DNA of 64,000 nucleotides from Stratiformator vulcanicus (GTDB taxonomy: Bacteria > Planctomycetota > Planctomycetia > Planctomycetales > Planctomycetaceae). Position 1 is the stretch's first letter. Every line of letters starts with the position of its first letter. Where the stretch lies: NCBI RefSeq assembly GCF_007744515.1, contig NZ_CP036268.1:186001-250000 (forward strand), in the 5' to 3' direction. This document shows, piece after piece, positions 10,282 through 60,362 of the stretch. The notes under the pieces are model-generated. The model was not told the DNA's origin. It saw nothing but the letters and a program-made list of their open reading frames with translations, and made no database searches. A program made the position numbers and the translations under genes.

Positions 10282-11031
10282 TCAAGCGTTGCTTGAGATT
10301 TGCGTTGCGGGGAGGACCCGCGTACCGATTCGTTCGCCGGCGACGGCGCGAGCGATGTTGCCCGGCTTTTGGTAGTTGAAAACGACGATCGGGATTTCGG
10401 CTTCCTGGCAGTGGTGAATGGCCGTGACGTCCATCACCTTCAGATTTTGCGACAGGACATCGGCGTAAGAGATTTCCGAGTACAGCACCGCGTGCGGGTT
10501 CTTGAGCGGATCTTCGCTGTAAACGCCATCGACCTTGGTGGCCTTCAGGACGACATCGGCTTCAATCTCTCGGGCTCCCAGAGCCGCGGCGGTGTCGGTC
10601 GTCACAAAGGGGCGCCCGGTGCCGGCGGCGAGGATGACGACGCGGCCTTTTTCCAAATGCCGGTCACAGCGACGTCGGATAAAGGGTTCGGCCACGGAGT
10701 CCATCGGGATGGACGATTGCAGCCGCGTCGGAACGTCGACGCTTTCGAGGGCATCCTGCAGGGCGAGCCCGTTGATGACCGTCGCCAGCATCCCCATGTA
10801 GTGGGCCGTCGGTTGTTTGATGCCGCGACTGACATCGGCGAACTGTTTGCCGCGCAAAATATTCCCACCGCCGCACACAATCGCCAGTTCGACGCCCTGC
10901 TCGGTCACGGCTTTGATTTGATCGACGAGTACGCCGATCTCGGCCATGCTGAGGCCCGATTCGCCACTGCGGCAGAAGCATTCGCCGCTGACTTTGAGCA
11001 GCACGCGTTTGTAGGGAGCAGATTGAGCCAT
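10282..11031 (-). CDS. pyrH: UMP kinase (uridylate kinase)
   Basis: Phosphorylates UMP to UDP in pyrimidine nucleotide synthesis; bacterial hexameric amino-acid-kinase-fold enzyme. From ATG 11031 it is 249 aa, the usual length. Motifs are [11 protein letters not shown] at the start, [11 protein letters not shown] (phosphate-binding Gly loop), the [11 protein letters not shown] segment, [19 protein letters not shown] and [15 protein letters not shown] longer frame begins at 11100, but its extra 23 residues are Arg/Ser-rich and unlike the family. It is not flanked by rpsB, tsf or frr as in many bacteria. UDP also feeds the neighbouring reductase pathway, but no shared transcript is implied. Confidence 0.95.
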
Positions 11032-11139
11032 CGGTTCCGTTCGATCAGCACATCGGTTCGGGGATGTGCGAGTTATCGGCCACTCACTCCGCGAGTGCAA
11101 TCGTGAGGCGACTCGGAGCGGCGTTTATCGATCGAGGGT

Positions 11140-11246
11140 GGCCGTATTTCTTGCGAAACGGCGATCGTGGGCGGGGTGGAGAGTGATGGAACGAGCGGGA
11201 TCTCAATGCGCGCTCGGTCCGCGGTTCTTTCGAACGCGGGGCTTGT
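11140..11246. repeat. Intergenic palindromic repeat, family B (degenerate left end)
   Basis: The left part (TTTCTTGCGAAACGG...) resembles CTTCCTGAGAAACGG of the copy at 40808. The right part CGCTCGGTCCGCGGTTCTTT...CGGGGCTTGT resembles the copies at 30699-30942. It lies 12 bases 3' of the stop of the 440-aa gene (11258). Confidence 0.6.
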
Positions 11247-11257
11247 GGGGCGTTTAA

Positions 11258-12580
11258 CTAGTTGATGGGAGGAGGCGGGAGGAAGTCCGCGGGCGATTCC
11301 TCCGGCATTGGCAGGTCGAGGACATCTTGTCCGCCGGGATTGGAGGTGGCGTCATCTCCCCCGACGAGAGGATGGGTTTGCCGCCACTCGGTCCAGAAGT
11401 CGGCCGGATGTGTCTTCCGCCACAGCGCGAGGGCGTTGCCGACGTGGCTGTAGAAGGTGTAGTGCGAAAGGATCTCCTGCTGCGTTTTAATGCGGGTCGT
11501 CTCGACGATCCAGTCGGCCGCCTTTCGGACGACCTCGCGGGGCGGTTGCAGCTCGGGATAGGCGATCGCCAGCCATTCGAGATGGTGCCCCGTGGCAATG
11601 ACCTGCTTGTATTCCAGTTCGTCTTCAGCCATTGCGATGGCGTCCGCACCGTAAGCCCATGCGGCCGGGGAGCGACCGTCGTCGAGTTGCGAGGCGACCA
11701 TCAGATCTCGCACGCGCTCCAGGTAGTGAAAGATTTCATCCCGTTTTGGAGCCGAGAGGATTTGGAACTCATCGTCGAGCCGCAGCAGCACCATCAGGGA
11801 GTACACGCGATGGGTTCCGCTGCAGACCCCGAAGCGACGATGGCCCCGCATCAGGCGGTCGGCAAGCAAGTTGAAGTCGACCAACCGTCCGTCGCCGTTG
11901 ATCCACTGCTTCGTCGTCGGGGGCAACCAGAATCCGAAAGCCATTGCGGACCATTCGGTCTCCATTTCGTCGGTTTGAAAGTCGCGAAGCGCTTCCTGCA
12001 AGGCATCGGCCAGCGTATCGCCGCGTCGACCGGGACCGAAGATCGGGGTGTCGATCGGGACTCCCGCTTCGGTCAGCGAAGCGAGCCAGTGATCGTGGTG
12101 GACCGAGAGTTCTTCTTTAGCGCCCCAGTTGATCGCGACCCCGTCCGGGCGTTCCATCAGGATCGGTTCGGCATCGTCGCCCCACGATTGAAGGTAAGCG
12201 CCGTGATCGGTCAGGAAGCGGACCATCTCGGGGCCGTCCATCACCGATTCGTCCGGGAAGTCGATAAAGCCGCCCCAAGCCCGCAGGGCGTGTTCGACGT
12301 AGTTCGGGCTGAGGCGAATCAGGTTGAACTTGGGCCGCACCTTTTCGAGTACGAGCGCCAGATTCTCTTCCGAGACGACGGACGGGTCGTCGTACAGCGG
12401 CTCGATCCGCACCGGCACTTCGCGGGCGATCGGAACGGGCCGAAAGGGTTCGGTCGCCGAGACGGCGGCTGCCAACTCTCGTCGGCCCTGTGACGAAAGC
12501 AGGGCGAAGGAAACCGTAATCGCCAGCAGGACGATGACCTGAACGGCGATGACTTGGGAGCGGAGGTCTTGGTGGTTCAT
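11258..12580 (-). CDS. Hypothetical membrane-anchored, helical-repeat protein
   Basis: 440 aa. One transmembrane segment at about residues 10-30 anchors a large soluble part. Its C-terminal half has repeated helical hairpins (HRVYSLMVLLRLDDEF, GHHLEWLAIAYPEL, YSHVGNALALWRKTHP) reminiscent of the alpha/alpha toroid seen in terpene-cyclase-like and glycosidase-like proteins. No catalytic signature is evident. It ends in a Pro-rich tail (MPEESPADFLPPPPIN). It lies 38 bp after the multi-pass membrane protein at 12619-14388 and is probably translated from the same message, so the two may act together on an envelope substrate. Fold assignment is by impression only. Confidence 0.65.
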   Translation of the reverse strand: MNHQDLRSQVIAVQVIVLLAITVSFALLSSQGRRELAAAVSATEPFRPVPIAREVPVRIEPLYDDPSVVSEENLALVLEKVRPKFNLIRLSPNYVEHALRAWGGFIDFPDESVMDGPEMVRFLTDHGAYLQSWGDDAEPILMERPDGVAINWGAKEELSVHHDHWLASLTEAGVPIDTPIFGPGRRGDTLADALQEALRDFQTDEMETEWSAMAFGFWLPPTTKQWINGDGRLVDFNLLADRLMRGHRRFGVCSGTHRVYSLMVLLRLDDEFQILSAPKRDEIFHYLERVRDLMVASQLDDGRSPAAWAYGADAIAMAEDELEYKQVIATGHHLEWLAIAYPELQPPREVVRKAADWIVETTRIKTQQEILSHYTFYSHVGNALALWRKTHPADFWTEWRQTHPLVGGDDATSNPGGQDVLDLPMPEESPADFLPPPPIN

Positions 12581-45500: not shown

Positions 45501-46412
45501 CCAACCCTACGGCCGCGACTGGTGCCGGAGTCCTCGCCCCCTGCCCCATTTATCAGCGTCAGGAATGGCCGACTTCGACTCATTAATCCGAACGTCGTGA
45601 TGACCGGTTCGACCCGCCGGCGCGGCCCGAACTACTTCCTTGAAACGGCTGACGCCACGGTGCTGATCGAGTCGGGCGAAATACGCGGTCCGGAACGAGG
45701 CAGCCTCGGGCATGTCGGCATGTTTCGCCTGCGATCGGCCGACGCGAATGCCACCAGCTTCGGGAACTCGCGCGGGACCGTCGAACTGCGCGACACGTTC
45801 CTCACGGCGGAATCGCCGGTCGTGACGATCGCCTATGAAAGTTCCCCGCTGCGGCTGACGAACTGCGGGATTGTCACGACTGACGACATCTTGCGATTGC
45901 AGACGACGAGCGGAACCGGAAGCATGACGGCAATGATCGAACACTGTTCGCTGTCGGCCGGACGCGCGACCGCCTTATTCGCCGGGCAGAACGTCGGGCG
46001 AAGTGCGACTGACACGGTCCGAGTTTCGATTCGAGATACGGTGATCCTTCCGCCGCTGGGAATCCGCCCCCCGTCCCCTCCCGCGGTGATCTTCGATCAG
46101 GACCAGACATTCCCGACCGATGTCGTCCACTGGCGTGACCGTCACCTTGCCGTTGCGATTGACGACGTGCGGCTGCTGGCCGGCCCCGGCGTTTATCTGG
46201 ACGAACAACGCTCCGAAACGAGGTGGCGGTTATACGCCGGCAAATTCGGGACGTCGGAACTGCATCTATCGAAGGACGCGGTCCGCCTCGCCTCCCGGCC
46301 GCAGATCGATCGCGTCGTCGAAATTGAGCCGAGGGATCTGAAGCTCGACCCAGCGTGCGAAGCGGCAAGTGCCGGACGCGGAGGCAAGCCGCTCGGCTTT
46401 ACGATGCCTTAG
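42501..46412 (+). CDS. Receptor-like Ser/Thr protein kinase with large extracytoplasmic region
   Basis: 1303 aa from ATG 42501. Hanks-type kinase domain about 22-285: Gly loop GEGGMG (32-37), K54 in VALK, HRD 146-148 (FVHRDIKPSN), DLG at 166-168 (DFG variant), and PPE in MPPEQ as the activation-loop end. A Ser/Arg-rich juxtamembrane stretch follows, then one membrane helix at about 380-402 (VVAGVVGFILFALVAWWLV), a Gly/Asn/Pro linker, and some 750 residues of short beta-strand repeats (for example RVLFDRCVIDSRGTRLVDV, VELRDTFLTAESPVVTI) like a right-handed parallel beta-helix. Such layouts are planctomycete-typical. The outer part could bind a polysaccharide or wall signal. Its stop overlaps that of the convergent next gene. 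Confidence 0.92.
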   Translation: MSTDSDEQESSEQVTLQPGMQLGRYLIKKRLGEGGMGTVWLAEDTQLSRSVALKVLKTAKGTPPNLIARFQSEARAAANLKHPSIVSVYDTGEIEGVLFIALEYVEGIDVERLMEKKGPIPYRRTVSIIGQIADALDHLHGQGFVHRDIKPSNILIRKDGSVTLTDLGLARAVEEESESRITRAGHTVGTVDYMPPEQARSSRSADIRSDIYSLGCTWYHMLTGDVPYRADSLTNRLRAHAEEPIPDPRKAQSDTPEAVVAVLRRMMAKKPSDRYQTPSALSKDITKASQRRSSVSVDDLAALSGSDTASADSRDEGPLSDASMGASKISDGALPSRKARPQRRSKSKSSPRVAAAPPPGRRPLKHEMKASGKPTGQDSAIVVAGVVGFILFALVAWWLVIEVGGSYVKLSDEGGEVTNVDPRINEGGPLTGNGSGNGIGNGQQDPAGTQRDSPNGQSGQPTGPEPGGTSPNPTRFPDVGGGTGTNPNQPTVLVPTRPDKTDDPSEAAPTPPPLSIGTEQERPHFPEWVATVATAERPHPWNQPGTEISVGRSDRTSTDYVNLSEAFANLPGTTATIRLHGDGPFVWKLPAARVTAPLTIVAATGSRPVITFVGSEVQGASDALLEIDGAELAFIGVDLTFDLAHAPLNAADVFAVAEGLLALRDTTISVERSDATAVENLVRLRQLDADPEERRPAGRVLFDRCVIDSRGTRLVDVEPLQADVVVSNSVAVLRDAGAFRVPIPSGFDPMSNPGREVEQVEPTLRLALFSSSCFSSESFLRAEPVPGFTVGSQPAMSFRAMNSVAASFRGGESQPLLSLGQASSTYRPENVIRWNTDRFAFGVWKPLIAMDGQTQPIAAGPSSWQRTWNDYTPPLLIPLSSLPRSESDSATPIDKIDQFARVSSHPDVGADPALLPERSERNFVAGLFEAKLPLPVRIPDPSQTINFNLGSGDLGSFVNSGNWPDGARIIASGSGPVPSSSFAIAGRTLTIEFETAGESPPTLRPRLVPESSPPAPFISVRNGRLRLINPNVVMTGSTRRRGPNYFLETADATVLIESGEIRGPERGSLGHVGMFRLRSADANATSFGNSRGTVELRDTFLTAESPVVTIAYESSPLRLTNCGIVTTDDILRLQTTSGTGSMTAMIEHCSLSAGRATALFAGQNVGRSATDTVRVSIRDTVILPPLGIRPPSPPAVIFDQDQTFPTDVVHWRDRHLAVAIDDVRLLAGPGVYLDEQRSETRWRLYAGKFGTSELHLSKDAVRLASRPQIDRVVEIEPRDLKLDPACEAASAGRGGKPLGFTMP

Positions 46413-48409
46413 GCCGCTTTGAGGGGTCGAGCCGATTGCGACCAATCGATCCAGTCGCCTACTTCCTCGACCGTCGGTGACTTCCCGCTGCGAAGAATCC
46501 GCTGGCCTTCTTCCGACTCGCAGAAGGGCGCCACCAGTTCGAACAACTCTTCGGCGTCCAGCGCGACGAGATCGGTCGGGTCGGTCACGCCGCACGCGAC
46601 GAGGATTTGCGAGTCGTGACCGCGGAGGTTCGGAATCTGACAGCACAACCGAGCCTGGCGTTGCCAGTCGCGAAAGACTTCGGCGGTGATATAGGTCACG
46701 CCGAGACGTGCAGCGACGCCGGTCGCATTGGCCCCCAGAAGATCGGCGACCGTGCGGATGCCGACGCCTTCGAGTCGACTCGCTGTCTTCGGTCCGATCG
46801 ACGGCGCATCGACGACCGGGCAGTTCCGATCGAGATAGAACTTCGGCCCGTCCGATTCGCCGCTTGCGTCGGCGGTCGATTCCGTGTTCGGCCGCAGCTC
46901 CGGCGGCAATGAATCTTTGAGCGAAATCGTCGGCTTTTGCGGCGGTTCTGCGGGGGGTTGTTTGGCCGTCGTGTTGCCGCCCCGCGGTGTCTCAGCCTGG
47001 GGGTCAATGATCTTCCGCATTGAGCCGAAGTCGGCGAACGGGTCGGCCGGGTTGATCTTCTTGGCTTCCGGACGGGCGAAGTTTGCCGGCTTGCTCTGCG
47101 TCGTTGCGGTCGTCGATTGCGCGGTCTTTGCTGGCGTGCCCGAAGCAATCGTCCGCGCCAGATTTTGAGCCGGGGACGATGTCGTCGAAACGGCCTGCGG
47201 CTTGGCCGGTTGAGCCGGTGCCACACGGGGTGTCACCGGGGGTCGGCCGGCCGTGTTGACCGTCCGTTGCGGCGGCGACTGCTTGACGTTCGCAACCGCC
47301 GGAGTCGGTTGTTCGACTTTGCGAGCCGTTGGTGCGGGTTCAGTTCTCGCCGCGGGCTTCGCAATTCCGGACTCTTTTCCGACCGGCTTGCCGTATTGGG
47401 TTCCGATCGGTCGCAGCGGCTTCTCATCAAGTTCGGCGAGGGGCACGTTGAGCACTTCGCGGGCGTGTGCTTCGCGGACGGCGTACTCATCTTCGGGCAG
47501 ATAGGTGAGGACTCGTCCGGTTTGTTGATACTCGCGATAGATCATTTCCACGATCTTTCGCTGCCGCGAATTGTGCATCCGCTTGGTGACCCAGAAGATC
47601 GGCACCGTCAATTTCGAAAGCACCCCGATGAGCGTGATACCTTTGCGCGGCGGGGCGACGCCGGCGTCGACGAAAGCGCGGTCGAGAATTCGGCTGAACC
47701 CGACAGTCGCGTGACCGAGACATCGCGCGATGCGAATGCGGAGGTCCTCGTCGAGGCCTTCGACCGGTCGTTTCCGGCCGACCTCGAAGTCGTAGCGCTC
47801 AATGAGTGCTTCGTAATGCGGATTGGATACGCAGGCGCCTTCGATGACCATCTGCTCGAGCCAGTCGCCGCCGGAGGGGACCGCGACGTCGGGATAGCCG
47901 AGTTCGTCGATCAGCATTCCTCGCAACGTGTCGTACGACTTTGTCATGCTCCACTCGGCGGCGCGGTGGATGACGGTCTCTTCCTCACTCTGCCCGGTGT
48001 GAAAGGGCATCAGCGGGTCGGTGTAGTAGTGGCTCAGCACCCCGGCTGCGTAAATCGCGTCGTTCCAGTCTTTGTTCGCGAGCAACTCAACGGTTTTGTC
48101 ATACCACTTCGCTGCCGCACGCGGGGCACCGCCCCAGTTGTTGTCACGCACGTGCAGCACGTGATTGGTGAAGTCCTTGAAGCGGGTGTCGGGGGCCTTG
48201 GCCCCTTCGAGGTACGCTTCGATGTTCCGCAAGAATAAATTCCGCCAGCGCGGAGCGTGTTCGTTCTTGAGGTGCAGCAGTGAGTCGAGCGCGAGCTTAT
48301 GGTGCGTGCTCTTGCACTTCTCGGCGAACAACACATTGAACAGTAGCGACATCGGCCCGGCCCGCCTGCGAACGAGATTGTCCCATTCTGACAATTCATC
48401 GAAATTCAT
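46409..48409 (-). CDS. Zinc-dependent phospholipase C-like domain fused to DUF4332 helix-hairpin-helix domain
   Basis: 666 aa. Residues 20-260 resemble the zinc-dependent phospholipase C/P1 nuclease helical fold: HHKLALDSLLHL, NHVLHVRDNN, SHYYTDPLMPFHTG (like H-x-x-x-D-x-x-x-P-x-H) and E-E-E-T-V-I-H supply the His/Asp/Glu set. A roughly 200-residue Pro/Ala/Thr linker follows. Residues 545-660 form a DUF4332 pair of helix-hairpin-helix motifs (APSIGPKTASRLEGVGIRTVADLL, then a second HhH). No signal peptide, so cytoplasmic despite the PLC-like fold. The role may be nucleic-acid related given the HhH part. Convergent with the kinase; the two stop codons overlap (TTAG). Confidence 0.78.
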   Translation of the reverse strand: MNFDELSEWDNLVRRRAGPMSLLFNVLFAEKCKSTHHKLALDSLLHLKNEHAPRWRNLFLRNIEAYLEGAKAPDTRFKDFTNHVLHVRDNNWGGAPRAAAKWYDKTVELLANKDWNDAIYAAGVLSHYYTDPLMPFHTGQSEEETVIHRAAEWSMTKSYDTLRGMLIDELGYPDVAVPSGGDWLEQMVIEGACVSNPHYEALIERYDFEVGRKRPVEGLDEDLRIRIARCLGHATVGFSRILDRAFVDAGVAPPRKGITLIGVLSKLTVPIFWVTKRMHNSRQRKIVEMIYREYQQTGRVLTYLPEDEYAVREAHAREVLNVPLAELDEKPLRPIGTQYGKPVGKESGIAKPAARTEPAPTARKVEQPTPAVANVKQSPPQRTVNTAGRPPVTPRVAPAQPAKPQAVSTTSSPAQNLARTIASGTPAKTAQSTTATTQSKPANFARPEAKKINPADPFADFGSMRKIIDPQAETPRGGNTTAKQPPAEPPQKPTISLKDSLPPELRPNTESTADASGESDGPKFYLDRNCPVVDAPSIGPKTASRLEGVGIRTVADLLGANATGVAARLGVTYITAEVFRDWQRQARLCCQIPNLRGHDSQILVACGVTDPTDLVALDAEELFELVAPFCESEEGQRILRSGKSPTVEEVGDWIDWSQSARPLKAA

Positions 48410-50496: not shown

Positions 50497-51246
50497 TCAA
50501 CCGCTTCCGGTCGGCCACGTCTTTATTTCACTCGGCAAGATCGGTCCCAGCGGCGGTAGCGGGGGGAAGTCGAACAGGCTCGGCTTCGGCTCGATCTTCT
50601 CCTCAGGCGGGTCGAGTACCGGGTCAGGCACCGCGCCGGTCGACTGATACTGCTCCCAATTAAAATGCAGCGCCCGCATCGACGGATAGCTCGCAAAGAT
50701 CGTCGTCACCGATATTCCGCAGTGCCGCCTGAGCTGACTTCGCGTCGGCCGCCCCCCTCCCAGATACTCCCGCACCTCGCCGTACGCGTCGAGAATCTGC
50801 TCCAGCGAATAACTGGTATTGGCCGGCGTCGCCCAAGCCGGATCAAGCCCCGCCGACTCCTTTAAACCGGACCAACCCTCCCGGCCCGCGAGTCGTTTCA
50901 AGGTAGTCAGACCAACCCCCGACCACTCGCAAAAATCATCTTGCCGCGGACACTCCTCCCCCGTCTCGGCGGCGTAACGTTTTAAATGCTCCACAATCAT
51001 CGGCCGGCTCCACGCCCCGGCCCGCGGGGCCGACCGCCGCTGCCCTGCCTGCGGATCGCTCCGCCCGATCTGCTCCAGCCAGGCCAGCCGCAGCAGCTCC
51101 GCCCAACCCCCCTCGGGGAAATGCCGCCCGACGGTATTCTTGCCGACCCGCATCCGCTGCTGAAAATCAACATGCGTCATCGCCACCCCCGGCAACCCCA
51201 CATAAGCCTGCACCTTCTTAATTAAAGTCGCCCGCGTATATCGCAT
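50497..51246 (-). CDS. Protein of three tandem HNR (homing-endonuclease-associated repeat)-like modules
   Basis: 249 aa. Three copies of a three-helix module of about 53 residues are visible at 6-58, 81-135 and 147-200. Each has an early amphipathic helix (LIKKVQAYV, MIVEHLKRYAAETG, QILDAYGEVREYLGG), a G-x-P/E-C-P-like turn, then a helix-turn-helix-like end (VGKNTVGRHFPEGGWAELLRLA, VGLTTLKRLAGREGWSGLKE, ISVTTIFASYPSMRAL). This is the pattern of repeats found next to HNH nucleases in homing endonucleases and phage proteins, where they bind DNA. No nuclease domain is present. The tail is Pro-rich (FDFPPLPPLGPILP). Likely a DNA-binding protein; target unknown. Confidence 0.65.
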   Translation of the reverse strand: MRYTRATLIKKVQAYVGLPGVAMTHVDFQQRMRVGKNTVGRHFPEGGWAELLRLAWLEQIGRSDPQAGQRRSAPRAGAWSRPMIVEHLKRYAAETGEECPRQDDFCEWSGVGLTTLKRLAGREGWSGLKESAGLDPAWATPANTSYSLEQILDAYGEVREYLGGGRPTRSQLRRHCGISVTTIFASYPSMRALHFNWEQYQSTGAVPDPVLDPPEEKIEPKPSLFDFPPLPPLGPILPSEIKTWPTGSG

Positions 51247-51613: not shown

Positions 51614-52348
51614 CTACGGTGTTCTCAATTCTTCTTTTGCCCGATCGGACGCCTTTCGCCGCCGCGCGCGATTCTTTACCACCTCAATGATCTGACGGAC
51701 GTATTCGAGATCCTGTTTGCCTGACAATTGGTCCCAGCCGTCGAGTTCAAAGCTCTCTAGTTGATCCATCAGAAGGAGACGCTCGTACTGTTCAATGCTC
51801 AGTTCCGGGGCACCTTCGCCGAAGTAAAAGTGCTTTAAACGTTCGCTTTTGAAAAAGTCAGCGAGCAGATCGGGGTCTATTTGCGATCCGAAAACGAAAG
51901 AAAGGCTTCGCAGCTTACTATTGAGTACGCCGACCGCCTCAAAGTCCGCTTTGGTGGGCTTGCCCGCGAATGACCCGACGTGCAACTCGAAATACAAAAG
52001 TTCGATATCTTGAAATGCCGAAATTGATTGCAGGGCGGATGTCGAAAGATGCCCTTTGAAGTCAAAGAATTTAAGGCCGGGCATTTTTCCGAATAATGAC
52101 AGGCCGCCTTTCTCCGGAAAACGGCAGTTCTTAACAATCAGGGTGTGAATGCAATCGGATGTTGCGAGGTCATTCATTTGAGAGGATGTGAAGCGGTGAT
52201 TACTGATGGAGAACTGGCGGTCCGCTGCATTGAACCGGCCCTTTTTCATCCATTTAAATGGTGGGCTTTCGTCTAAATCCTCGGAACACGTGTAAGTGCA
52301 AGACACCATGCTTATGGCGAATGCCAGTACTGTAGCCAAACGTATCAT
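51614..52348 (-). CDS. LRR-like lipoprotein, paralog 2 of the 51.6-56.1 kb locus
   Basis: 244 aa. Short signal with lipobox MVSC (about residue 17), so probably a lipoprotein. Irregular leucine-rich-repeat-like strands follow (HTLIVKNCRFPEKGGLSLF, MPGLKFFDFKGHLSTSALQSI, LRSLSFVFGSQIDPDLLADF, LKHFYFGEGAPEL), then YERLLLMDQLESFELDGWDQL and a basic helical end (VVKNRARRRKASDRAK). It is paralogous to the protein at 52974-53738: Y-E-x-LLLMD-x-L-x5-L-x-GW-x-QLS and the charged tail are shared, while the first half is strongly diverged. The start overlaps the stop of the orphan module by four bases (ATGA). GC content is visibly lower than in surrounding genes. Confidence 0.75.
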   Translation of the reverse strand: MIRLATVLAFAISMVSCTYTCSEDLDESPPFKWMKKGRFNAADRQFSISNHRFTSSQMNDLATSDCIHTLIVKNCRFPEKGGLSLFGKMPGLKFFDFKGHLSTSALQSISAFQDIELLYFELHVGSFAGKPTKADFEAVGVLNSKLRSLSFVFGSQIDPDLLADFFKSERLKHFYFGEGAPELSIEQYERLLLMDQLESFELDGWDQLSGKQDLEYVRQIIEVVKNRARRRKASDRAKEELRTP

Positions 52349-52959
52349 TCTACAATTTCCTTGACACGAATGTTACTGTAAATTACCCCGCTGCCCCAGT
52401 GCTGCTGAAACAAAATTGTGTCACTTTTGGGACGCGTTTTCCCTCCGCCTGTCCCGCCCTCAATTGTTCCGTAGTCGATCCAATCGCCATCGCCGAGCTT
52501 GACGAGAACACTATAAGTGTTATTTGAAGGTTCGTTGTCATCCGTCCTCAATCGCTGAATTCGCATTGTAATGGAGCCACCGCCCTGAGGAGCGTTTTGC
52601 AAGTCAGTCAGTAATGTCGCGTCCGTTTCATTGTAAGGCACTCCGGTGATCAGAGAAGCCACATCCTCCTGCAACCATGGCTTCGTTCCACCGGTCATAT
52701 CGACCTTCCCGCCGACGACGGTTCCGCTCACATTGGCAGTGTTCCCCCCAATAATAACCTGCCCGGCAGTCATGGCAGCCAGCAGAGACGCGGTATCGAA
52801 GATTTGAACCTCTACCTTGTTATCAAAGTAGACGCCACCGTTCGAGAAGAAGCCCGGCTTGCTCTTATGATAATCCGCATCTACATAATTTCCGGCTGTC
52901 ACTCCCGGGCGGCCGTCCTCAAGACTATAGTCGGGCGAAAGTTCATAACTCAGGCACAC
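52345..52959 (-). CDS. Orphan copy of the C-terminal lectin/DUF1080-like module
   Basis: 204 aa from GTG 52959, the only start available after the frame opens. It aligns along its full length with the last about 198 residues of the 794-aa protein: SLEDGRPGVTAGNYVDAD / SFENGRPGITTGHYVEAD, KPGFFSNGGVYFDNK / KPGFFANGGVYFDNK, LITGVPYNE / LISGVPYAS, ILFQQHWGSGVIYSNIRVKEI / IHFQQHWGSGVIYSNINIKEI. The GVYFDNKxExQIxD and closing segments resemble DUF1080-type concanavalin-like domains. There is no export signal, so it may be silent, translated by coupling, or a recombination reserve for the large gene. It lies 14 bases after the first LRR gene and overlaps the second by four. Confidence 0.75.
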   Translation of the reverse strand: MCLSYELSPDYSLEDGRPGVTAGNYVDADYHKSKPGFFSNGGVYFDNKVEVQIFDTASLLAAMTAGQVIIGGNTANVSGTVVGGKVDMTGGTKPWLQEDVASLITGVPYNETDATLLTDLQNAPQGGGSITMRIQRLRTDDNEPSNNTYSVLVKLGDGDWIDYGTIEGGTGGGKTRPKSDTILFQQHWGSGVIYSNIRVKEIVE

Positions 52960-52973
52960 ATCATTTCGACCGA

Positions 52974-53738
52974 TTAAGAGGGGCCAGCACCGTCATTGCG
53001 AAGTTTGCTTCGCTTTCGATTGAAGAAGGCGCGGGAGCGTCGTTGAGCACGAGCTTCGGCAACTTCCATGATGATCTTGACGTACCGGCGATCGGGATCG
53101 CTCAGCTGCTCCCACCCGCTGAGATTGACGGTTCTTAATTCATCCATCAGAAGCAAATTCTCGTAAGTCCTGACCGGCAAACCAGGTATTGGATCTTCGA
53201 TTGAAAAGCCAGTTAACTTGGGGTTGGCAAGAAGTAGTTGGATCAGCTTTACGTTGGGTTGAATACCGACCTCGATACCAAATCCTTTCAAATGCTTGTT
53301 CAGAGCGGGAATCGCTTGCAGCTCGCTCGGGCGCGCGGTGTTCCATTGCGAATAACTAGAAAGCGACACATTAAACGACTCGAGCGATTGGATTTTCGCC
53401 ATGGTGGCAAACATGTCTTCGGGAACCGTCGAATAGAAGTCGAATGACTTGACGGAAGGCATCGAAGCAAGCGGTTCGATCGAATTATCCGGGAATGAAC
53501 AGTTAATGAAAATGATATACGGCACATGATCCAGTTTGGACAATTGTTCTAACTGGCATTTGTCGAAGGATCTTCGTTCAAATCTCAGCGCACCTTCTTG
53601 GAGAACCTCGTCCGGCTTAACCCACGACAAAAGACTGTCATCCGCCGCAACAGGGTGTTGGCTCGCCGAGTACGCGAGAGCGTGGCAAATAACTAGTAAT
53701 GAAGCCGCTTTACATAGGCCCCAAAGTCCCGCGCCCAT
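52974..53738 (-). CDS. Exported LRR-like protein, paralog 1
   Basis: 254 aa. N-terminal hydrophobic signal (LWGLCKAASLLVICHALAYSAS), probable cleavage before QHPVAADD. LRR-like strands follow (PYIIFINCSFPDNSIEPLASM, VKSFDFYSTVPEDMFATMAKI, LESFNVSLSSYSQ, LTGFSIEDPIPGLP), then YENLLLMDELRTVNLSGWEQLSD and a basic tail (EARAQRRSRAFFNRKRSK). The start codon overlaps the stop of the 794-aa gene by one base (TGATG), so translation is probably coupled. One such LRR protein is paired with each copy of the DUF1080-like module, implying that it works with, or protects against, that module. Confidence 0.75.
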   Translation of the reverse strand: MGAGLWGLCKAASLLVICHALAYSASQHPVAADDSLLSWVKPDEVLQEGALRFERRSFDKCQLEQLSKLDHVPYIIFINCSFPDNSIEPLASMPSVKSFDFYSTVPEDMFATMAKIQSLESFNVSLSSYSQWNTARPSELQAIPALNKHLKGFGIEVGIQPNVKLIQLLLANPKLTGFSIEDPIPGLPVRTYENLLLMDELRTVNLSGWEQLSDPDRRYVKIIMEVAEARAQRRSRAFFNRKRSKLRNDGAGPS

Positions 53739-56122
53739 CAGATTTCCTTAATATTAATGTTGGAGTAAATCACGCCGCTGCCCCAATGTTGCTGGAAGTG
53801 AATCTTCCCATTGGGAACGCGCCGTTTGCTTGATCCGCTAGTTCCACCGTCGATTCTAGTCCATTCACCCCAGTCGCCGTCTCCGACGAGTGTGCGAATT
53901 TCGTAGATGCTGTCGACTCCGTCAGCCTCTATTCTGCGAAATTGAATTGCTATTTGACCGCCTCCCTGAGGCGCAGTCTCCAGATCAGTCATAGAATTCA
54001 AAGAACTGTCGCTCGCGTACGGCACACCACTAATCAAGGTGTTCACACTTTCCTGCCTCCAAGGCTTGGAGCCACCAGAGAGATTCGTCACACTTCCGTT
54101 CAACCCGCCATTAAGTGTCACCTGATTTCCGCCGATTACCACGGGTGTTCCATTAATTGCCGCAAGCAATGCAGCAGTGTCGTATATCTGTAGTTCAGCT
54201 TTGTTGTCAAAGTAAACACCGCCATTCGCAAAAAAGCCCGGTTTACTGTCTGCATTGTCAGCTTCGACATAGTGCCCGGTTGTTATACCGGGGCGACCAT
54301 TCTCAAAAGAATACTCAAACGAAATCTCGTAGGCGTAACTGCCAGCTTGATCAATGTCAAACGTCACGTCGTATGTACTACCAAGGTTCTTACCCAACCA
54401 CTGCCCGGTCGATTCATTCTTCACTGGCCCCGGCGTGCGGAGTTGAGCGGGTGTTCCGCCTGCGATCGTCGCCAATGACCCGATGACTTTCCAGCCGGTC
54501 GGCACATCGACGGTATTGTCCCAATGCGATGTATCGAGACTCAAGTCGGTCGCGGGGTCGACTGCGATTTTCAGAGCTTCGACGCTGACACTGATCGTAT
54601 CTCGCTCGATGATTGTGGCACGGTCTTCGGAGTAGAGCCGCAAGTGGACCTTAAAATCACCTTCGCCATAACCTTCCACATAGACCGTGCTCGGGAGACT
54701 GCTTTGCCCATCGGCGCCGATCTTCCAATAACGACGTGACCCCTGTGTTACAGTCGGATCATACCCAGTTAGCGACGACTTCTGCTGATTGCTATACAAG
54801 CGAAGCTGGGTTGCTTCCAAAGCAATCCATTTCCCGGCGTTGGCTGCGACATGGACTTCCGAAAGATCAAGCGACACTTCGAGCAGGTCATCGTCGATAA
54901 AAGTGCCGAAACTTGTATATGTTGCAGAGGAATCTGATGAGTCGGCTACTCCGTTCAAATTGTCATCATCAACATTAACGAAAGTTCGCAGGCCGAGACC
55001 ATTTGAGGGGTCTTCCGCGGCGTCATCGTCCTCATCGATATCGCCGTCTCCGTCAATATCGGCCCCCAAATCAATCCCGGTCATATCCGCAACCGAAACC
55101 ACCACCCGTCCACTCGCCGCATCAAAGCCGGCTGCGCCGCCCTGTGTCGCAGTCACTTCAAACGCTTCGGTGAAGCCGACGCCTTTCCAGGACTTGCCGT
55201 CGATGTAGCCGGTCGATTCATAGTCGAGCTGTTTAATTAATGTCAGCTTGTGCTCGCCGTCGATCTCTTCGATTTCGAAGTATTCGCTATTGCTGAGCGA
55301 GACCGAGAACGGATCGGACGCCCATTCGGCGGGGAGGGTAGCGACATAGGTGCCGACGGCCGTGTCTTCGCTCAGCGTAATATTAATGTCGCCGACGACC
55401 GCGATCTTAACGCCCGCGGAGTCGCTCGAAACGCCATCGGTCACCGTGTAAGACAATTCATCCACGCCGAGGTAGTCGGCGTCGGGTTTATAGAACAGGC
55501 CGCCGCGTTTGCTCAGCCATTTCGCGACACCGCCGTCGGTCGAGACGTCGCGCTGCGTCGTCGTGGTGAGGTCATCGCCGTCCGAGTCGTTGTCGTTATC
55601 GAATAACGGCCCGCGCCAGCCGGTGTAAATGTCGTCTTCATTATTAATGACGAATGCGTCGTCGGCCGCCGTGACGGCGCTATTTTTAAGTTTAATATTG
55701 ACCGTCGCGTCGTAGGTGTCGGTGCCGTTGTCGACGGTGATATCGAAGGACGCGACGAGTTCGTCGTCCGCGTTGGTGCTGAAATTCTTAGGCGCGATCC
55801 AGTCGATGCCGCCCCACTTACTAACCCATCTTAATTGTCCGCCGTCGACGCCGTTGGCGGGTGTGAAATTGCTATGCCCGGTAATTTGGGCCGACGGGTC
55901 GTTTAATTCATCGAGTAGTAACGAGTCGCGCCAGCCGGTCGAGATCCGCTTTTGGGTTTGATGCCAGTCGATGTCGATCGTCTGCGGGTTGGTCGCGGTG
56001 CCCGAAAGCATCACCCGCTGCTCCAGCGGTTCGATTGCGGTGAAGCCGCGTCGACGGCGTCGCGGGCGAAAGGAATTTGCGGAATCAACGTAGAGGGAGC
56101 GCAGCCAGTCCGTGACGACCAT
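53738..56122 (-). CDS. LEPR-XLL-type exported multidomain protein with C-terminal lectin/DUF1080-like module
   Basis: 794 aa. The N-terminus has Arg-rich RRRRR then FTAIEPLEQRVMLSG (residues 27-41), a LEPR-XLL-like element that marks large exported planctomycete proteins. Residues 75-160 and 180-260 are two Ig/cadherin-like tandem domains (VSKWGGIDWIAP..., LSKRGGLFYKP..DELSYTVTDG). About 262-360 is a cadherin-like domain (INITLSEDTAVGTYVATLP). DIDGDGDIDEDDD is a dockerin/EF-hand-like calcium loop. A beta region follows, then from about residue 597 the DUF1080-like module that is duplicated downstream. Probably surface or periplasmic, calcium-stabilised, carbohydrate-binding. Base composition falls toward the 3' part, as if the module came from elsewhere. 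Confidence 0.82.
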   Translation of the reverse strand: MVVTDWLRSLYVDSANSFRPRRRRRGFTAIEPLEQRVMLSGTATNPQTIDIDWHQTQKRISTGWRDSLLLDELNDPSAQITGHSNFTPANGVDGGQLRWVSKWGGIDWIAPKNFSTNADDELVASFDITVDNGTDTYDATVNIKLKNSAVTAADDAFVINNEDDIYTGWRGPLFDNDNDSDGDDLTTTTQRDVSTDGGVAKWLSKRGGLFYKPDADYLGVDELSYTVTDGVSSDSAGVKIAVVGDINITLSEDTAVGTYVATLPAEWASDPFSVSLSNSEYFEIEEIDGEHKLTLIKQLDYESTGYIDGKSWKGVGFTEAFEVTATQGGAAGFDAASGRVVVSVADMTGIDLGADIDGDGDIDEDDDAAEDPSNGLGLRTFVNVDDDNLNGVADSSDSSATYTSFGTFIDDDLLEVSLDLSEVHVAANAGKWIALEATQLRLYSNQQKSSLTGYDPTVTQGSRRYWKIGADGQSSLPSTVYVEGYGEGDFKVHLRLYSEDRATIIERDTISVSVEALKIAVDPATDLSLDTSHWDNTVDVPTGWKVIGSLATIAGGTPAQLRTPGPVKNESTGQWLGKNLGSTYDVTFDIDQAGSYAYEISFEYSFENGRPGITTGHYVEADNADSKPGFFANGGVYFDNKAELQIYDTAALLAAINGTPVVIGGNQVTLNGGLNGSVTNLSGGSKPWRQESVNTLISGVPYASDSSLNSMTDLETAPQGGGQIAIQFRRIEADGVDSIYEIRTLVGDGDWGEWTRIDGGTSGSSKRRVPNGKIHFQQHWGSGVIYSNINIKEI

Positions 56123-56911
56123 CGGGAAATTCCTTCGGCAGGGAGGGCAAATGCGGCACAGCCGCGGCTGGGATTAAATGCGCGTACAGTAGTGAACGTT
56201 GAGTTGGTGGGGAGAATATCGCCACGTTTCTGCAACGCAACCGCAATCGAGAAAAAACCGCCCGAGGGGGGGTGACAGATTCTGTCACCCCTCTGCCGAA
56301 GTGCGTTGAAAATAACGAGTTGCAATCGGCGATTATTTTGGAGAAATTTTGGAGTTTTGCGACCAGCCGGGCTTAGAAGAGTCTCCGCACGGTTGTTTTA
56401 TCGATCGATGTCGAAACGCAACTCTTAACTTCGCCTCTTCCGGACAAATCGAATTTGTCAGGGGCACGGTCAGGCCCGGCGAGTGTGATGATGTGGCTGG
56501 TGGCCAATCTGCGCGGCGAAATCGCTTCCCAAACAATCCCAACACTTTCCCATTTTCCTGTTTGAAAGTTGCGCCGGGCGGTGGGGAATCGCCCCTTTTT
56601 ACCTGTTGATGTGAACCGGTGGACGCCGGGGCGTCAAGGGTGGGGGAGAGGTTGGAGGTGAGAGGTGAGTGGTGAGTGGTGAGTGGTTAGAGGGAGTGCT
56701 GGCTTCGCTCGGTTTTGTGTTTGTGCTGCGGTGGGGTTGGTCGCGCAACGGGATGGGGCGGGGGTGATTTGCATCAGTCCGCGGGGGGGATGCTCCTTCG
56801 GAGTTTAGAGTCTAGGGGCGAGTGGCTAGTGGAAGGAAGGAGCTTCCACTGGAACGCTGCCGCAGGCACAGAGGGACGAACGTCCCCCGCAGGCACAGGG
56901 ACGCGGATGCG
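56123..56911. other. Long intergenic region upstream of the LEPR-XLL gene
   Basis: 789 bases holding a perfect 21-nt palindrome (56270-56290) and a degenerate tandem run GTGAGTG-GTGAGTG-GTGAGTG at about 56661-56690. A GAGTGGCTAGTGG-type purine stretch lies near 56818-56835, related to those at 38541 and 39831. The small repeated string CCGCAGGCACAG appears twice (56865 and 56889). No protein-like frame or RNA gene seen. Confidence 0.5.
56270..56290 (-). promoter_or_regulatory. Perfect 21-nt palindrome upstream of the LEPR-XLL gene
   Basis: GGGTGACAGA-T-TCTGTCACCC, 10-bp perfect arms with a single central base, 148 bases upstream of ATG 56122. On the minus strand it is followed by a GC-rich stretch and TTTTTT (56251-56256 region), so it may be a terminator of transcription arriving from comM, or an operator for the locus. 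Confidence 0.5.
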
Positions 56912-58453: not shown

Positions 58454-59063
58454 CGGGACGCGGATCGGACAGGAATCGGACTGTGCGGTCGAACAGCGAG
58501 AGGCTCAGCGATTGTGGGCAGGGAGTAAAGCGACTGCAACGGTCCGGTCCCGTAGATTCCCGCGATCTTGATGGACTTCGGAATGCACAACGGCTGCGAA
58601 TGGTCGGCGATCACTGGAGATTGCCACACAGTTGAGAAGTGTTGGTTGAGTTCGAATCGAAGTGTGGTTAACCCCCTGCCCCGTAGTAAGCCAGGTTGGT
58701 TGCGCGGCCACCAACGCGGGACAAAGATTACGTCCAAAACCAGCGAATATAAGGATTTTGGCGACTGGCACGGCCTATGCACCCTTCAGAGGCAAGCGGA
58801 TAACGACCGGGGTGTCGTCGGAAACGATTCCACCACACACAGCTTGAAATGTAAGGAGGCAGACGCAGTCGGCCCAATTGATAAGAGAATCAATGGGTGC
58901 TCAGCAGATTTTGACTTGAAGGTTTGCACCAGTACGACTGCGGCCAATTCACTTCCCCTGTCATTTCATCCGTGACGTTTGAGTCGCGATCGATCGCGGC
59001 TCGCCGGCCAAATGGTTTGTGCCGGGACACGCAATTCGCGCCTGTCAGATTGAGGAGAGATTT
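58454..59063. other. Divergent intergenic region comM / SOD-like gene
   Basis: 610 bases. Must contain the promoters of both flanking genes. A 135-codon plus-strand frame (58568-58975) has no protein-like features. GAGGAGA before ATG 59064 is the ribosome-binding site of the next gene. No terminator, RNA gene or repeat recognised. Confidence 0.45.
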
Positions 59064-60362
59064 ATGAAAAAGTGGACACTCACCGCATTTGCGACGATGC
59101 TGGTTGCCGGACTTGGCACCAGTATGGCGGTCGCTCAGTCCGAGCCGCTGGAAAAAGACCCGGTCGAAAAACGACTGAGGGGCGGGACCTCGGATGAATT
59201 GCTCGAACGCCGTGGGCGATTCGATGCCGTTGACGTCGATCGCGTCGAGATCAACGACTCCGACGAGTACCGCGGTACCAACGAGCGTCGTCAGGCCGAT
59301 CGCTTCGACGCCAGCCGATTTGAAGGCTACGACGAAGTCGAAGCCGACGGCCGGTACTATTACCGGGACGGACGGCGTCGTTTGGTCGATCCGAACTCGG
59401 GTCAGCCGGCACGAGTCCGAAGCGGCGTCGTGATTCAGGTCATTCCGAAAGGAACGATCGAAGGGCTGATGAATCGCTCTAGTCACGACGGCCAACGACG
59501 CAATCGCGGGAACGAGCAGTATGGCTCGAACCAACCGCAGAACCGCGTCAACGCCGCCGTTGTTGTGTTCTCGCCGATGCGGGATTCACAAATTGACGGA
59601 CACGTTCGCATGGAACGCAACGGTGACCAGGTTCGCTGCTGGGGCGACGTCTCAGGGCTGAGCCAAGGCCAGTATTGCCTCTGCGTGCACCAGTTCGGCA
59701 ACATGCTCGATAGTGCCGAGGGCCAGGGAATCGGCGACCAGTATCAGTGGCGTCAAAACAACTCTGATCAAAGGCAGAGCAACAATGCCAAGCGGGGTCA
59801 GTTCGCGACCTTTAAGGTCAACAAGAACGGTAAGGCTCAGTTCGATAAGACAGCCAGCCTTCCGCTCGGTGAATTCGTCGGACGTTCGGTCGTAATTCAC
59901 GAACTTGGTAATAATGGCCAGCCTAAAAAGGCCGTCGCCTTTGGTATCGTTGGCATTACCGACGAAGCGACCGGTTCACGGCGTGGCCAGAAAGAACGGA
60001 CTTCCGGCTATCGCGGAACCGACAGCGAGCAATCCGCTGACGACCGCGACGAGCAAAAACGGAACGCGGAAGATCGCGAACAGAATCGCGATCAGGCCGA
60101 TAACCGAGAAGCCGCACGTAAAGAGCGTCAGCGAAATCGTGACCGCCAGCAGAACGACAATCGCGAACGTAATCGCGACCAGTCGAACGCTGCGGACGAG
60201 ACTCGGAATGAGTCAGAATCGGACCGCGCACTGACGGTGCCCGAGCGTGATTCGAACGAGTCTTCAAGCTCGGTGGACCGGACAAAGACCTCGAATGACT
60301 CGACTTCGGGTCCGAATAGTGCGGCCGGTCGCTCAAACCGAAACGGTCAGAATCAAGAGTAA
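59064..60362 (+). CDS. Exported protein with degenerate Cu/Zn-superoxide-dismutase-like domain and highly charged tail
   Basis: 432 aa from ATG 59064 with GAGGAGA upstream. Signal peptide MKKWTLTAFATMLVAGLGTS, cut after VAQ or nearby. Residues 163-300 follow the Cu/Zn SOD beta-barrel: NAAVVVFSPMRDSQIDGHVRM, CWGDVSGLSQGQYCLCVHQFGNM (like GDVSGLxPGxHGFHIHEFGD), GQFATFKVNKNGKAQ, FVGRSVVIHELGNN (like VGRAVVVH) and AFGIVGI. Of the metal ligands H46 is Cys207, H48 is H209 and H120 is H279; the H63/H71/H80 loop is lost. Enzyme activity is therefore unlikely. About 130 C-terminal residues are almost only Arg, Asp, Glu, Asn and Gln, expected to be disordered. A terminator follows. Confidence 0.8.
   Translation: MKKWTLTAFATMLVAGLGTSMAVAQSEPLEKDPVEKRLRGGTSDELLERRGRFDAVDVDRVEINDSDEYRGTNERRQADRFDASRFEGYDEVEADGRYYYRDGRRRLVDPNSGQPARVRSGVVIQVIPKGTIEGLMNRSSHDGQRRNRGNEQYGSNQPQNRVNAAVVVFSPMRDSQIDGHVRMERNGDQVRCWGDVSGLSQGQYCLCVHQFGNMLDSAEGQGIGDQYQWRQNNSDQRQSNNAKRGQFATFKVNKNGKAQFDKTASLPLGEFVGRSVVIHELGNNGQPKKAVAFGIVGITDEATGSRRGQKERTSGYRGTDSEQSADDRDEQKRNAEDREQNRDQADNREAARKERQRNRDRQQNDNRERNRDQSNAADETRNESESDRALTVPERDSNESSSSVDRTKTSNDSTSGPNSAAGRSNRNGQNQE

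Follow-up and report, generated by a model that had tools for sequence, protein, structure and literature searches.

What is the function of a C-terminal protein module that occurs twice in tandem, each time followed by a gene for an exported leucine-rich-repeat (LRR)-like protein? The question is raised by a four-gene locus in a 64,000-nucleotide stretch of the Stratiformator vulcanicus genome (NZ_CP036268.1, positions 186,001 to 250,000; hereafter, the window). This planctomycete genome is a single contig of 5.23 Mb (coded G000 here), the locus lies on its minus strand, and plain coordinates are window positions. We consider it probable that this is a polymorphic toxin-type locus, a weapon used in bacterial competition, with toxicity and immunity inferred from the genomic evidence set out below. 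The preliminary description of the locus had reported four open reading frames (ORFs), and all four were verified on the minus strand, abutting one another. The features are as follows.

53738..56122, minus strand: carrier protein of 794 aa, with a LEPR-XLL-type N-terminus, a Big_9/cadherin-like domain, a pre-domain, and a DUF1080-like C-terminal module.
56123..56193, minus strand: 5' flank of the carrier gene, conserved with the paralogue at G000:C1:1044315-1046360 (blastn, 93.3% over 56193-55098).
55085..56122, minus strand: constant N-terminal part of the carrier (aa 1-346), three copies in the genome, G+C content at third codon positions (GC3) of ~0.75.
55081..55168, minus strand: junction zone in the carrier; paralogue identity ends at 55098 and 55081, and the GC3 change-point lies at 55168 (permutation p ~0.002).
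54566..55084, minus strand: pre-domain (DxDxDNxG ... FVNxDDDNxNGxxD), which precedes several unrelated C-terminal domains in planctomycetes.
53738..54565, minus strand: C-terminal effector-like module of the carrier, assigned to the DUF1080 fold by alignment, hhalign, structure model, and structural matches.
52974..53738, minus strand: LRR1, exported LRR-like partner of 254 aa, with a 1-nt overlap with the carrier gene.
52345..52974, minus strand: orphan, a 5'-truncated second module whose frame runs from the LRR1 stop codon (listed ORF 52959-52345, 204 aa, with the GTG at 52959 internal).
51614..52348, minus strand: LRR2, exported LRR-like partner of 244 aa, with a weak lipobox (MVSC) and a 4-nt ATGA overlap with the orphan.

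The reading is carried above all by a constant LEPR-type N-terminus, which is present in three near-identical copies, each of them running from the same point into a C-terminal region unrelated to the other two. When aa 40-349 of the carrier were used as a query against 99 genomes, matches were confined to its own genome, where there were three. The identity with paralogue 1 (C1:1044315-1046360) is 93.3% at the DNA level, from 71 nt 5' of the start codon to position 55098, and that with paralogue 2 (C1:4539.7-4541.6 kb) is 94.3%, ending at position 55081. Past these positions, all three carrier proteins are unrelated to one another. The GC3 of the carrier gene drops from 0.75 to 0.54, with the change-point at codon 318, and low GC3 (0.54 to 0.57) is common to the carrier 3' part, LRR1, the orphan, and LRR2, compared with 0.66 to 0.78 for the neighboring genes. 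In both paralogues, GC3 likewise falls after the constant part.

The tails of the two paralogues differ in how readily they can be assigned. Paralogue 1 is a full-length carrier of 681 aa in which the constant part is followed by another Big_9 domain and an uncharacterised tail of ~240 aa, and the gene behind it encodes a membrane-anchored or exported protein of 371 aa (L100:5155-8360 = G000:C1:1043155-1046360); Pfam searches of this pair gave no match other than Big_9/cadherin. Paralogue 2 ends in an AHH nuclease (PF14412, 37.3 bits versus a cut-off of 22.3) that has the AHH, N, H, H, Y motif. The next gene, for an unassigned partner of 224 aa, overlaps by 29 nt, and a SUKH protein (PF09346, 53.2 bits) is encoded after it. 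Tox-AHH has been listed as a polymorphic toxin domain with the same motif residues, and SUKH is a major immunity superfamily of polymorphic toxin systems (Zhang et al. 2012, PMC3482391). Paralogue 2 (L101:6745-9980 = G000:C1:4539745-4542980) is truncated at its 5' end, being cut right behind the stop of a 222-aa ORF, and its locus is another orphan-type cassette.

A similar result was obtained when the pre-domain was searched with a profile across planctomycete genomes (coded by G-numbers). In G172 and G227, it is followed by a PT-HINT pre-toxin domain and a tail, with a Cys-rich CPCC protein encoded next; in G166, G157, G204, and G172, by an alpha/beta-hydrolase-like (lipase-like) tail with GxSxGG; and in G377, by yet another uncharacterised tail. 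G227 encodes pre-domain proteins of both the DUF1080 type and the PT-HINT type. In G172 (L060:32-5444), a pre-domain protein with an uncharacterised tail precedes three tandem related genes (349, 333, and 142 aa), two of which gave weak HEAT matches; they possibly form an immunity array. The DUF1080-type carrier of G326 and the lipase-type carrier of G166 are homologous over 522 aa (E 2e-59), comprising the LEPR motif, a dockerin-like part, SdrD_B, and the pre-domain, and are unrelated past the pre-domain. In the same kind of comparison, G759 and G377, which belong to the same genus, showed homology only in short pieces, and a tblastn search of the G326 carrier against phages matched only SdrD-type repeats. 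Thus, the exchange of 3' modules behind a constant N-terminus, which the preliminary description had proposed to look for, occurs both in this genome (three tails) and in other planctomycetes (G326 versus G166). Tails and partners vary among relatives, in contradiction to an identical, fixed set of four genes, and the proposed geometry of orphan cassettes in a polymorphic secreted system was borne out.

The module itself has a patchy distribution. Single-sequence searches were empty in the 99 relatives, GTDB contig scans, viral contigs, plasmids, phages, and PDB. The modules of relatives were reached only by profile search, which brought the total to 11 planctomycete genomes; both copies in the S. 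vulcanicus genome lie at the window locus. Matches in G328 and G269 were left out of the module set, being located in or beside ordinary DUF1080 proteins, as was a weak match in G355. A first structure model, built with 8 sequences, had a predicted local distance difference test score (pLDDT) of 52 and was set aside, and a second, built with 14 sequences, reached a pLDDT of 70.2 and a predicted template-modeling score (pTM) of 0.74. Among 50 structural matches of this second model, the top 11 were DUF1080 or 3-keto-glycoside eliminase/hydratase structures, with lectins next; the best were 4qhz (Z 11.0 over 167 residues) and 9fbe (Z 10.1). This order was obtained after VIA-align re-ranking; by Foldseek alone, alginate lyases came out on top, at poor TM-scores. 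When 12 DUF1080 domains of the same genome were combined in a profile, it recovered the matched PDB entries and, in hhalign, matched the module profile with 96.7% probability over the last 52 columns.

Thus, the resemblance to DUF1080/concanavalin-like domains that had been suggested for the module was confirmed, and on the structure model the module has the DUF1080 (3-keto-glycoside eliminase/hydratase) fold. Like the 3-keto-disaccharide hydrolase family (PF06439; PDB 4qhz, 9fbe, 8rr2, and 8tda), it forms a jelly roll and retains recognisable strand motifs, namely N-S/G-G-V (NxGV), E-x-Q-I, and the final Q-x-H...NI. Unlike that family, it is mostly without a significant Pfam match (2 of 14 members match PF06439 at E<=0.1, the best with E 1.5e-4 and 22.3 bits versus a cut-off of 26.8), its EWN tryptophan region is not recognisable, and it has partner genes and a pre-domain. 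The module may be catalytic. A side observation concerns G075 (L062:5933-7951), in which a 672-aa Calx-beta/SdrD_B surface protein without a pre-domain ends in a DUF1080 domain (39.9 bits); this is a possible source or relative of the module.

For a toxin-immunity system, the nature and location of the partner are critical. Wherever the gene after the module could be read (13 loci), it lies on the same strand, mostly within ~150 nt of the module or overlapping it, and encodes an exported protein with a hydrophobic or lipobox segment at its N-terminus (13/13, with the start codons of a few uncertain). The partners are LRR-like in G000 (twice), G255, G765 (twice), G763, and G820 (as the second gene there), pentapeptide repeat proteins in G326, G227, G759, G772 (twice), and G820, FGE-sulfatase-like in G377 (twice) and G326 (as the second gene there), and HEAT-like in G127. 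Two clades with 100/100 support were obtained in the module tree, and an LRR-like partner accompanies 7/7 modules of one clade versus 0/6 of the other (p ~6e-4 from simple counting, without correction for relatedness). Module clade therefore predicts partner family, and the matched pairs envisaged in the preliminary description were found at the genetic level. Its label "LRR-like" for LRR1 and LRR2 derives from the repeat pattern and from the fact that they weakly resemble partners of other genomes in which the LRRs are clearer, and held to that extent; Pfam gave no LRR match.

N-terminal export-like segments are missing from the partners that accompany nuclease and PT-HINT tails. DUF1080-type tails have exported partners and nuclease and HINT tails non-exported ones, a contrast from which the site of action of each toxin can be predicted, and we infer that partner location fits the site of toxin action, as a toxin-immunity system predicts. 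The carrier would display or deliver its C-terminal module to neighboring cells. Because its partners are always exported and those of the nuclease tail are not, the module would act outside the cytoplasm, in the periplasm or on an envelope glycan or the cell surface, most likely on a glycan or by binding one. LRR1 would be the cognate immunity protein of the carrier module.

Export of every module partner would equally be expected if the module were a glycan- or partner-binding tip and the LRR and pentapeptide proteins its receptors or co-factors, with tips exchanged for kin recognition or attachment and no killing involved. Such a role in surface recognition or adhesion also agrees with the Big_9/cadherin-like adhesin domains in the carrier and with a lectin-like fold, lectins ranking directly after DUF1080 in the structural matches. 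However, in the same genome the identical N-terminus bears an AHH nuclease, close to which lies a SUKH gene, and in relatives the same pre-domain bears PT-HINT toxins with CPCC genes. We therefore regard adhesion as unlikely, although it is the strongest of the alternatives. The related suggestion of a system for envelope variation rather than antagonism was not supported.

The second module and its partner bear on how the locus arose. The carrier's last ~200 residues and the orphan share 52% identity over 204 aa (E 2e-63), on which grounds chance similarity was dismissed, and LRR1 and LRR2 share 30% identity over 193 aa (E 2e-27). The gene overlaps (TGATG, 1 nt, between carrier and LRR1; ATGA, 4 nt, between orphan and LRR2), the paralogy of both modules and both partners, the hydrophobic signal-like segments at the N-termini of LRR1 and LRR2, and their absence from the orphan all stood as first described. 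Three related points did not. Homology had been said to begin at the module boundary, but in a 14-sequence alignment the module fold begins at about aa 520-575 of the carrier, ~80 residues before the orphan's starting point, so that the orphan is without approximately the first 80 module residues, which form the first strands of the predicted fold. In addition, the supposed 14-nt gap behind LRR1 is an in-frame remnant, as the orphan frame is unbroken from the LRR1 stop codon and reads IGRND-V, which aligns to the module interior (WLGKN...DV in the main copy and WIGRNDV in G763). Because these upstream codons align to the module interior, the GTG that had been listed as a start encodes an internal Val, and perhaps the orphan is not translated independently. 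An orphan that could simply be switched into the carrier is likewise not supported, since it is without the pre-domain and the first strands.

Truncated or displaced cassettes were also found elsewhere. In G377 (L018:6964-14242), a 1588-aa carrier with the other tail mentioned above is followed by a 161-aa partner, then by a truncated DUF1080-type module with an FGE-like lipoprotein, and then by a shorter, decayed module piece with a second FGE-like gene. These orphans are more decayed than that of the window, and one has an in-frame stop. In G772 (L080), a headless pre-domain-plus-lipase (alpha/beta-hydrolase-like) cassette (10406-11524) lies behind a DUF1080-type carrier and two tandem pentapeptide genes. 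Such remnants are expected if new tail-partner cassettes insert ahead of old ones, as proposed previously (Zhang et al. 2012, PMC3482391). Thus, the orphan and LRR2 may be what is left of an older toxin-immunity cassette that was displaced, rather than duplicated in place, by recombination of a new cassette into the carrier gene's 3' end, and LRR2 would probably have been retained for immunity to relatives in which the old module is still in use. A further fragment, in G127, was rejected as a true orphan, representing one gene cut by an insertion sequence (IS). In that genome, a module C-terminal piece and an identical 299-aa partner occur at two sites (L019:9629-11008 and L055:5591-6799), each near the same 317-aa transposase, with another IS interrupting the carrier gene at the L019 site; the partner cassette was apparently copied along with an IS.

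A plain in-place tandem duplication of module tail and LRR, with the truncated module translated on its own and working as a decoy or as a regulator of LRR2, would account for the two window modules, and likewise the two partners, being mutually closest relatives. The orphan frame is intact despite a nonsynonymous divergence (dN) of 0.38 and saturated synonymous sites, and the ATGA overlap fits translational coupling. However, the orphan is without the first fold strands and a native start, the G377 orphans have decayed further, and a displaced allele would seem equally intact without selection on the fragment. In-place duplication is thus given slightly less credence than adhesion. An extracellular enzyme of ordinary sugar processing, accompanied by surface proteins as accessories and without a role in conflict, is very improbable, since patchy distribution (1/99 relatives), low GC3, tail swaps on one N-terminus, and partner matching are not typical of housekeeping sugar metabolism, even though DUF1080 domains are abundant in the genome (16) and the G075 protein ends in an ordinary one, over the Pfam cut-off and with no pre-domain.

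Several points weigh against a toxin-type locus. The DUF1080 link is remote (15-21% identity, model pLDDT of 70), and DUF1080 proteins are common non-toxin enzymes, of which the 16 domains in this genome are examples. A Pfam scan of the carrier gave Big_9/Cadherin domains only, with the classic secretion markers TpsA, RHS, FilH, VgrG, and WXG absent, and no established secretion or processing marker was detected in this protein that would indicate a delivery route. Retention of LRR2 as an immunity gene is suggested only by analogy. As for export of the carrier, which had been called an exported protein, no classical signal peptide is present, and the LEPR-XLL/planctomycete-extracellular motif (NF012209) scores 16.2 bits, just under the cut-off of 17; in the 94%-identical paralogue (L100), it scores 17.6 bits. 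Export is therefore a prediction based on this motif.

The polymorphic toxin reading nevertheless accounts for variable tails on a constant N-terminus, an adjacent 3' partner, the occurrence of established toxin domains (AHH and PT-HINT) on carriers of this type, and displaced downstream tail-partner cassettes (the window orphan, two in G377, and the lipase cassette of G772). Polymorphic toxin systems and the immunity families Imm-LRR and Imm-HEAT are already known. Like the systems with Imm-LRR, Imm-HEAT, and Imm-Ank (PMC3482391), the present one has toxin-then-immunity order, tails swapped with their partners, partners with LRR-like and HEAT-like folds, and a Tox-AHH domain that shares the carrier and lies close to a SUKH gene. 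It differs from them in its DUF1080-like tail and in having pentapeptide and FGE-like proteins among its partners; a search of the text of Zhang et al. 2012 (PMC3482391) gave no mention of DUF1080, concanavalin, jelly roll, cadherin, or pentapeptide.

For detached CdiA-CT fragments, it has been reported that initiation signals are missing, whereas the immunity gene downstream is intact (Poole et al. 2011, PMC3150448). The window locus resembles these CdiA-CT/CdiI and Rhs orphans in its constant N-terminus, its variable tail directly followed by a partner, and its downstream detached tail fragment without translation initiation signals, each with an intact partner. It differs from them in that it bears no VENN/DPxGL mark, its orphan starts inside a domain and not at a shared pre-toxin motif, and its partners are exported. 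Of the marks of those systems, neither the TpsA domain and filamentous (FilH) repeats nor RHS/YD repeats were present in the Pfam scan of the carrier, and CdiB was not found in the window, which was not exhaustively scanned for it. The carrier, just under the cut-off, and its paralogue, above it, share the N-terminal motif of LEPR-XLL/planctomycete extracellular proteins (NF012209 and PF07595), a family defined by the N-terminus only, to which no conflict role is attached. In the literature searched, coverage of which was incomplete, no description was found of the DUF1080-like tail class, of a LEPR-type carrier joined to this pre-domain, or of pentapeptide or FGE-like partners that are exported.

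We tentatively suggest, while holding it to be the less probable case, that these proteins form a new class of envelope-acting antibacterial toxins. In such a class, a DUF1080-fold enzyme or glycan-binding domain on a planctomycete-specific LEPR-type carrier would be aimed at a surface glycan and neutralised outside the cytoplasm by solenoid/FGE-fold immunity proteins (LRR, pentapeptide, FGE-like, and HEAT-like), which are swapped as whole families with the module clade. Giant LEPR-type surface proteins without an assigned purpose abound in planctomycetes, and the locus, with one N-terminus and three tails in one genome, provides direct genomic evidence that at least some of them carry swappable (candidate) toxins. 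In addition, the candidate polymorphic-toxin repertoire gains a sugar-enzyme-like tail (DUF1080 fold) and, as exported partners, pentapeptide, LRR, and FGE-like proteins. Every module-partner pair is a directly testable toxin-immunity hypothesis.

PADLOC gave no hits, and the locus is therefore not a catalogued anti-phage system. A scan for promoters and terminators gave nothing beyond chance level, and at the orphan junction no DNA repeats were found except the module itself. A 249-aa protein with sub-threshold HNH_repeat and HTH matches adjoins the cassette on the same strand (50497-51246). A 666-aa protein (46409-48409) consists of a Zn-dependent phospholipase C-like domain fused to a DUF4332 helix-hairpin-helix region, and a highly polar, low-complexity protein of 447 aa (59019-60362) contains a Cu/Zn superoxide dismutase-type domain.

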